NCBI GenBank assembly: GCA_943349045.1
Contig: CALQZC010000004.1
Span: 1-46,594 of the forward strand
Direction: 5' to 3'
Origin: Candidatus Peribacteria bacterium
GTDB lineage: Bacteria > Patescibacteriota > Gracilibacteria > UBA1369 > UBA12463
Length of the DNA: 46,594 nt
Part shown: piece after piece, positions 32,099 through 33,825 of the stretch
Position numbering within the stretch: the stretch's first letter is position 1
Layout: every line of letters begins with the position of its first letter
The notes under the pieces: generated by a model
The model's input: the letters and a program-made list of their open reading frames with translations, nothing else
What the model was told of the DNA's origin: nothing
Database searches by the model: none
Position numbers and translations under genes: made by a program

Positions 32099-32133
32099 GG
32101 CTCTAGTATATCATAGGAATTTGAAGCTAAGGA

Positions 32134-32162
32134 TTGACTTGAATTTTACCGTTTGCTATAAT
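32134..32162 (+). promoter_or_regulatory. Near-consensus promoter TTGACT-N17-TATAAT driving the candidate sRNA
   Basis: TTGACT 32134-32139, 17-bp spacer, TATAAT 32157-32162; no downstream + strand CDS. Confidence 0.8.
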
Positions 32163-32168
32163 GGTCTT

Positions 32169-32228
32169 GTTCACTAGGGGGAAACGATGTTATGACTGCG
32201 TGTCATAATGCTACGCCCCCCATTTTTT
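32169..32228 (+). ncRNA. Candidate small RNA (~60 nt): GGGGG / TTATGAC hairpin / CCCCC, then a T-run
   Basis: Begins ~7 nt after the -10; nested stem GGGGG(32177-32181)...TTATGAC-TGCGT-GTCATAA...CCCCCC(32216-32221), A, TTTTTT(32223-32228). Confidence 0.65.
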
Positions 32229-32751
32229 ATGCATTTCTTTCGATTTTGTCCCGATCTCTTACTAAGAATATTTTGTACGCTTGAAATTTTTTTAGTAGAG
32301 AAGATTCAGATTTTCTGTTCGGAATAATAATTTTTAACAATTTTTCTTTTGTTGCCAAATACTCATGTAAGCAGTAGAAATCTCCATCTCCAGAAACTAT
32401 GACTGCTTTATCGAAATTTACAAATTCTATCGCAGCTGAGTGAAGTACAAGTTCTGCGTCTACATTTCCCTTTGGCTTACCGTAACAATCCCTGATTGTT
32501 GGCTTGAAAATAATTTTATATCCTATCTCTCTAAGTTTTTCGTAAAATTTTTCGTTTTCATGAATGTAGCCTATGAACATAAACGCCTTCTGCACCCTGA
32601 ATTTATCACGAAGATATTGTCGGAATTTTTTAAGATCAAGCTTCCAGCCTTTGTATATCATTTTTCCGTTTCTATATACGTCCTTGCTCGTTCCAAGGTT
32701 TAAATTTTGTGCGTCAATAAATGCGAAGTTGTTTGTTCTGTGATTATTCAT
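32227..32751 (-). CDS. NYN/PIN-like (DUF88/LabA-type) domain protein, putative ribonuclease
   Basis: 174 aa; NFAFIDAQNLNLG, KGNVDAELVLHSAAIEF, AVIVSGDGDFYCLHEYL. Confidence 0.85.
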   Translation of the reverse strand: MNNHRTNNFAFIDAQNLNLGTSKDVYRNGKMIYKGWKLDLKKFRQYLRDKFRVQKAFMFIGYIHENEKFYEKLREIGYKIIFKPTIRDCYGKPKGNVDAELVLHSAAIEFVNFDKAVIVSGDGDFYCLHEYLATKEKLLKIIIPNRKSESSLLKKFQAYKIFLVRDRDKIERNA

Positions 32752-32900
32752 ACCTATATGTTACCGTTTTTTTAGGCTAACATATGCTGAAAATCTGATC
32801 AAGCGCTGTGCAGTTTTTTCATCTTTTTGTTAGAAATTTGTAATATGCAACCCTATTATTTATTGCTCAATAATCTTGTGATTCAATACAAGTTTTCGTC

Positions 32901-33090: not shown

Positions 33091-33825
33091 TTATTCTTCA
33101 AGCTCATCTGGACAACGACTTCTTCCCAGCATATTACCTGGTGAATAATAATATATACGTTGAATATTTCTTGGCGCTAAGCTTGTTGTAATTTTGTATG
33201 TGCACACAAGTGCACCTGAGCTATATTTTCCAAGATCTCCATAGTCATCAACTATAAAGGTTTCACCTGGATTTACCTTTTTTTCTGAAATTAGAGCATT
33301 TTTCTTAGGCGCTGTTTGTGTTTTTTCTTTTTGCGCTGGTTTTACTTCCACCTTCTCTTGCGTTGCAGATGTATCTTGAATTGTATTCGCCTCTTTTTGG
33401 ATTGTAGTTGCTTGTATTTTTCCATTTATAAGAATTGATGATAATAGCATTAAAAGGCTACTTATGAAGAGTGTGAATAACACTTCGACCCAATAATCAT
33501 TTTTTATTTCTTTTTTCGGAAGTGGCTTTGTTAAATCTAGATCGGCCACCTTCTTCATTTTTTCTATTAGTTTTTTTATGTCATTTCTCGTTATATAGAT
33601 ATATCTTCCCAGGCTAGTTATGGCTACAATTGTAGATAGTATTGCTGCAGCTACAAAATATATTGATGAATTTTTATCTAGTGCTGCAGCTATTCCTAAT
33701 AATGCCGCAGATTGTCCGCTAATAAATGTTAGAGTTTTGATTCTGTCTTGAATTGAATTTACTGCTAGGCTTGCAGTATTTTGCAAGATTTCCATTCTCA
33801 TTTCTCTTTCTTCGATTGGATTCAT
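33091..33825 (-). CDS. Hypothetical membrane protein (about 3 TM, extracytoplasmic C-terminal domain)
   Basis: 244 aa; hydrophobic segments followed by a K/T/Q-rich linker and a Cys-containing C-terminus. Confidence 0.7.
   Translation of the reverse strand: MNPIEEREMRMEILQNTASLAVNSIQDRIKTLTFISGQSAALLGIAAALDKNSSIYFVAAAILSTIVAITSLGRYIYITRNDIKKLIEKMKKVADLDLTKPLPKKEIKNDYWVEVLFTLFISSLLMLLSSILINGKIQATTIQKEANTIQDTSATQEKVEVKPAQKEKTQTAPKKNALISEKKVNPGETFIVDDYGDLGKYSSGALVCTYKITTSLAPRNIQRIYYYSPGNMLGRSRCPDELEE

Follow-up and report, generated by a model that had tools for sequence, protein, structure and literature searches.

A structured small RNA convergent with an NYN-domain ribonuclease gene in a Peribacteria genome and, apparently, across many other phyla

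Is the hairpin that follows a strong promoter between recG and an NYN-domain gene of a Candidatus Peribacteria bacterium a free-standing small RNA, as was originally predicted, or does it belong with the convergent nuclease gene that it abuts, and what might it do there? The window (the whole stretch of DNA analysed, 46,594 nt) contains the following features at this site.

32134..32162, + strand: small-RNA promoter, TTGACT-N17-TATAAT with a TG extended -10 (sequence, promoter scan, homologous loci)
about 32168..32228, + strand: structured small RNA of the "B type" (left-out covariance model, covariation, fold)
32177..32181, + strand: 5' arm GGGGG of the outer stem, partner CCCCC at 32217-32221 (fold, covariation, covariance model)
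32190..32208, + strand: inner stem UUAUGAC/GUCAUAA, closed by the conserved loop UGCGU at 32197-32201 (fold, covariation, covariance model)
32223..32228, + strand: U-tract of the intrinsic terminator, sharing 2 nt with the NYN stop codon (sequence)
32227..32751, - strand: putative NYN-domain ribonuclease gene, 174 aa (Pfam PF01936, AlphaFold model, conserved acidic residues)
32104..32898, strand not assigned: inserted islet of ~0.8 kb that comprises the promoter, the RNA and the NYN gene (alignment to sister genome G004, with ends placed to within a few bases)

Promoter, hairpin and nuclease gene in the window

The original prediction described a TTGACT-N17-TATAAT promoter, a ~60-nt hairpin RNA and a T-run lying over the NYN stop codon, and the sequence reads exactly so. 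The -35 element (32134-32139) and the extended -10 element (32157-32162) match the consensus at 11 of 12 positions and tie for best among 17 promoter-like matches in the 8 kb scanned; across the window genome TTGAC-N18-TATAAT occurs 13 times, compared to no occurrence of a reversed-pattern control. At two consensus promoters elsewhere in this genome (G000:C1:14021-14049 and C48:5655-5683), an operator-like inverted repeat, GGTGAGT...(A/G)CTCACC, lies between -35 and -10, and a similar motif is found upstream of the NYN gene at locus L050.

The RNA consists, in order, of a 5' tail (UUCACUA), a terminator-like outer stem, an internal loop, a 7-bp inner stem (arms 32190-32196 and 32202-32208), the loop UGCGU and a U-tract, with a CG/CG step at 32185-32186/32214-32215. 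Its predicted fold has a minimum free energy of -19.3 kcal/mol (z = -3.0 vs. shuffles), and because of the internal loop its terminator was overlooked by a simple terminator scan. The only match in an Rfam gathering scan of the window was a tRNA, leaving the hairpin without a family, and a relaxed Rfam scan of eight relatives gave no match to the RNAs themselves, in line with the original prediction, which did not recognize the RNA as a known family.

The NYN domain of the convergent gene was likewise borne out by a PF01936 match (E=2e-13; 51 bits vs. a cut-off of 24), as was its 2-nt overlap with the T-run. NYN was the sole domain in a Pfam search of the protein, which gave no Abi_2 (AbiD/F) match. 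The AlphaFold model (mean pLDDT 93) has 2qip and the MARF1 NYN domain (5yaa) as its nearest PDB structures, and the acidic residues D13, D39, D98, D122 and D124 are conserved, with D13, D98, D122 and D124 invariant. RNase activity is likely, since a CRISPR-associated NYN protein is a Mn-dependent ssRNA nuclease that trims crRNA (PMC11346440).

A joint insertion and a constant RNA partner

The islet is missing from the site upstream of recG in sister genomes G004, G001 and G003, where a 68-aa gene and tyrS come directly after recG. The alignment shows promoter, hairpin and NYN gene as a joint insertion in the window genome. Homologous intervals without the promoter, which the original prediction had named as evidence against the RNA, thus do literally occur, but it is the whole RNA+NYN unit that is missing from them, which shows that a module was inserted, not that a hairpin without function was lost. 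We dropped conservation of the recG-upstream interval as a test, since the site is empty in the sisters and orthology there is uninformative; the useful comparison lies instead in what flanks the 3' ends of NYN homologues at other loci. A 244-aa gene (33091-33825, minus strand) between the 68-aa gene and tyrS is also missing in the sister genomes and is a second insertion at this hot spot. Elsewhere, direct repeats, AGGTCGACATTAAATTTTCGTTAAATAATTATAAA, seem by eye to flank the NYN-RNA islet at L039 (also L038) and might mark how it moves.

A DNA search with the window hairpin in 59 relatives gave chance-level matches only. The 3' flanks of NYN homologues in the same order carried, in genome after genome, a promoter and a conserved convergent RNA, which we call A type, with the pattern AAUCACGAYGA-stem-internal loop-GG-UUYCGU-CC-stem-UUUU. 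In an alignment of 22 such RNAs, 81% of paired cells were complementary vs. 67% in shuffles, the covariation score was 0.43 vs. 0.21 for shuffled alignments (none of 500 reached as high), and 13 of 15 pairs showed double changes. We searched the 89 genomes of the order for the RNA, with an A-type covariance model (R1), and for NYN genes, each independently of the other. Both were present in 30 genomes, NYN alone in 3, RNA alone in 2 and neither in 54 (Fisher p=5e-18). By locus, the RNA lay on the opposite strand within ~125 bp for 42 of the order's 49 NYN genes, and NYN relatives with weak matches only (E around 1e-3 to 1e-6) had no RNA beside them. NYN and RNA distances within the A type were correlated (Mantel r=0.62; 0 of 2000 permutations), as co-inheritance predicts. 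Model R1 did not match the window at 32168-32228.

The window's own type surfaced only after its closest NYN relatives had been located by a profile scan of 84,980 species genomes. These 29 relatives (59-71% identity; Microgenomates, CPR3, WWE3 and Dojkabacteria) all have a B-type RNA in the same convergent position, with the pattern AAUCACUAGGGAGAAACGACC-AUAUGAC-UACGU-GUCAUAU-UGCUACG-CCUCCC-A-UUUU, visibly the window RNA. Alignment A3 and covariance model R2 were built from 28 of the 29 B-type loci with the window left out. The B-type loci had been recognized by eye first and modelled second; independent tests of R2 come from the window and L187. In A3, 95% of paired cells were complementary and covariation was 0.41, compared to 0.14 in shuffled alignments (0 of 500 reached the score) and at most 0.13 in slid controls. 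Double changes occurred at 9 of 15 pairs. The inner stem shows free compensatory change (double changes among relatives at six of eight pairs of the inner helix), and the tail, the internal loop and the greater part of the apical loop stay unchanged. R2 located the window RNA at 32167-32231 (66.0 bits, E=1e-15; model E-values are rough) and had no other match in the window genome. The covariation is strong, and together with the left-out match it strongly supports a structured small RNA that has a promoter and a terminator of its own.

A sister RNA type is convergent to NYN genes of ~50% identity in many phyla. According to MAG titles, an approximate taxonomy in which some entries are perhaps misassigned (e.g., 'Rickettsia typhi'), the remaining 51 NYN loci come from Omnitrophota, Elusimicrobiota, WOR-3, Chloroflexota, Armatimonadota, Aerophobota, Nitrospirota, Myxococcota, Margulisiibacteriota, Caldisericota, Saccharibacteria and others. 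R1 or R2 matched 50 of the 51 at E<0.01, L242 being borderline (L237 and L238 are the same loci as L034 and L036), and L205, L219 and L224 are intermediates matched by both models alike. Together with the 29 B-type loci, the RNA is present at 79 of the 80 best NYN loci. Among the other-phyla RNAs all 15 pairs show double changes, and across phyla most positions of the tail and loop show 91-100% conservation. NYN genes elsewhere thus do carry such a hairpin, and the RNA, far from being free-standing, is the constant partner of this NYN subfamily across phyla.

In the NYN tree all B-type RNAs fall in one clade (support 98/86) that includes the window; other Peregrinibacteria NYN genes lie outside it, which shows that NYN gene and RNA arrived together by horizontal transfer. 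Judged from the tree, RNA type is shown to track NYN clade. Presence is patchy (e.g., 1 of 10 genomes of one order). No NYN relative was found in plasmid and phage collections, and few were found on viral contigs. We conclude that a conserved, covarying RNA with its own strong promoter lies convergent to, and nearly always adjoins, one NYN subfamily; from these sequences the pairing is well supported, and the RNA is apparently a member of a widespread, undescribed structured RNA family. The literature searched, whose coverage was partial, held no report of an NYN protein with a small RNA or antitoxin.

Locus anatomy and neighboring genes

Of 81 homologous loci, 88% have a promoter scoring at least 9 of 12 in the corresponding position, compared to 8% of shuffles. 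The -10 element mostly ends 6-9 nt ahead of AUCAC, placing the transcript start probably at the conserved 5' tail, AAUCAC. The NYN stop codon lies anywhere from -30 to +153 nt relative to the RNA start, so that overlap with the coding sequence is not the conserved feature. Most loci, like the window, have one RNA unit; two are found in L215, in G113 and at the window genome's second NYN-RNA pair (G000 contig C6:32403-32998, L145). In this tandem of A-type units the first unit has no terminator, a T-rich end following the downstream unit only, and at L045 and L048 the hairpin is followed by a separate terminator. Both observations indicate that the repeated unit is the hairpin and not the terminator. 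Orphan RNAs without an intact NYN gene were found at six loci (L135, L136, L137, L139, L140 and L257), some beside NYN remnants such as the 19-residue N-terminal scrap at L140; intact NYN genes without a recognizable RNA are rarer.

Two ideas about the RNA itself were abandoned. Mimicry of 16S rRNA, prompted by CCGCGGUAA in A-type RNAs, was rejected when the words shared with the window genome's own partial 16S rRNA, the only one compared, proved no longer than those of shuffled RNAs. A tail-loop pseudoknot drawn by eye was dropped, as no covariation links the G/C at tail position 9 to the loop.

At seven loci from different phyla (L166, L167, L211, L213, L223, L226 and L236), with both RNA types represented, the pair lies inside an operon, between an SNF2-type helicase (DrmD/Snf2-like by PADLOC) and a type IIG restriction-methylase. 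PrrC is a known example of an RNase housed in a restriction operon, and these seven loci resemble it in their setting; the protein is unrelated, and the PrrC inhibitor is no convergent RNA. At seven further loci (L165, L168, L174, L179, L181, L183 and L185), all B-type CPR in Microgenomates-related genomes, the pair has ychF as its neighbor, which suggests that in those genomes it has been retained vertically at a single site. Beyond these, we found no notable recurring partner among 347 neighboring ORFs.

What the RNA may do

We lean slightly toward the view that NYN gene and RNA form a horizontally moving module in which the RNA restrains the RNase, like the RNA half of a toxin-antitoxin system. 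The RNA would be made in excess and, by means of its conserved 5' tail, loop and internal loop, would bind the NYN RNase and hold it inactive. If the short RNA were lost, e.g., through phage transcription shut-off or loss of the module, the stable RNase would be set free and would cut single-stranded RNA, cellular or phage. This is a toxin-antitoxin or abortive-infection logic that would be functionally akin to type III. Three observations lead us to infer that the RNA acts on the protein, as an inhibitor or antitoxin: both its sequence and its structure are conserved, beyond mere complementarity; it can occur in tandem; and it can persist after its partner is gone.

Type III toxin-antitoxin systems pair an RNase toxin with an RNA encoded upstream in the same operon as tandem repeats, with a terminator between (PMC5086642). 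Like ToxIN, CptIN and TenpIN, the NYN-RNA pair is a two-gene mobile module with an RNase fold and a small structured RNA, and RNA excess is presumed; tandem RNA units occur at some NYN loci. The pair may work like type III. However, the NYN fold stands in place of ToxN, and at the loci examined the RNA, usually a single unit, is convergent with its own promoter rather than upstream in an operon. Since the type III arrangement was not found and the fold differs, we do not class the pair as type III. In AbiF/RCd22, an Abi_2 protein is coupled with an ncRNA antitoxin that has a sigma-70 promoter and an intrinsic terminator and is encoded upstream and co-transcribed (PMC12373285). As in the NYN pair, an ncRNA with a sigma-70 promoter and an intrinsic terminator there adjoins an RNA-acting protein, toxic in that system; the families differ (NYN, not Abi_2), and our RNA is convergent instead of upstream and co-transcribed. 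The CRISPR-associated NYN ribonuclease (PMC11346440) and LabA/DUF88 proteins share the NYN RNase domain, but none is described there with a dedicated convergent RNA. We tentatively entertain, at somewhat less than even chances, that the pair represents a new class of RNA-controlled RNase, neither type I nor type III, serving as a mobile defense or addiction RNP. Held just as provisionally is the form this would take, a convergent small RNA from the 3' end of the gene that assembles with the NYN RNase in CPR bacteria and many other uncultured phyla, sometimes within restriction operons.

The RNA could instead be a substrate, cofactor or guide and not an inhibitor. A guide, cofactor or processed product that NYN trims or carries to act on other RNAs, forming an effector RNP, would fit the strict pairing, the conserved single-stranded tail and loop, the crRNA trimming by the CRISPR-linked NYN protein (PMC11346440) and the tandem units, which might be precursors. 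However, the tail is constant and no variable guide segment is present, matches to the host's own partial 16S rRNA were no better than those of shuffles, and the orphan RNAs fit an antitoxin better, making this reading unlikely.

Type I-like antisense control, in which the RNA would block translation of the convergent NYN mRNA, or trigger its decay, by pairing with its 3' end, seems to us less likely still. The tail-to-tail convergence has a precedent in known type I pairs whose antisense RNAs overlap at the 3' end. The overlap is convergent in every pair, and the NYN side of the hairpin has no T-run, so that the NYN mRNA probably runs into the complement of the RNA. Such complementarity arises by itself in this arrangement and demands no conserved sequence, but the tail and loop are highly conserved in sequence and structure, unlike a free antisense RNA; moreover, the NYN stop codon varies in position, tandem units extend beyond the gene, orphan RNAs persist without NYN, and the partner is an RNase of about 170 aa, not a small hydrophobic peptide.

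It is very improbable that the RNA is functionless and the site a mere terminator/promoter arrangement insulating NYN from neighboring transcription: the outer stem and U-tract do form a terminator whose T-run abuts the stop codon, but a consensus promoter is maintained just upstream, covariation and conserved loops go well beyond what a terminator needs, and L045 and L048 have a separate terminator after the hairpin. The competing 30-codon peptide (ORF 32192-32284) can be practically discounted, since the frame, although open, is not conserved (any ATG there in only 11 of 29 homologous loci, with frames ranging from 6 to at least 34 codons) and the stem varies by compensatory pairs, not by codon.

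The finding adds an apparently new RNA family, absent from Rfam, and two covariance models that provide a searchable marker for a mobile, probably defensive module, also in the form found within helicase/type IIG restriction operons. A family known mostly as "NYN domain, unknown role" acquires a nearly obligatory RNA partner, and with it comes a direct way into what NYN proteins do in CPR bacteria, Omnitrophota, Elusimicrobiota and other groups that are hard to cultivate. Should the RNA inhibit the nuclease, the pair would be an RNA-antitoxin system that differs from type III in both enzyme fold and gene arrangement.
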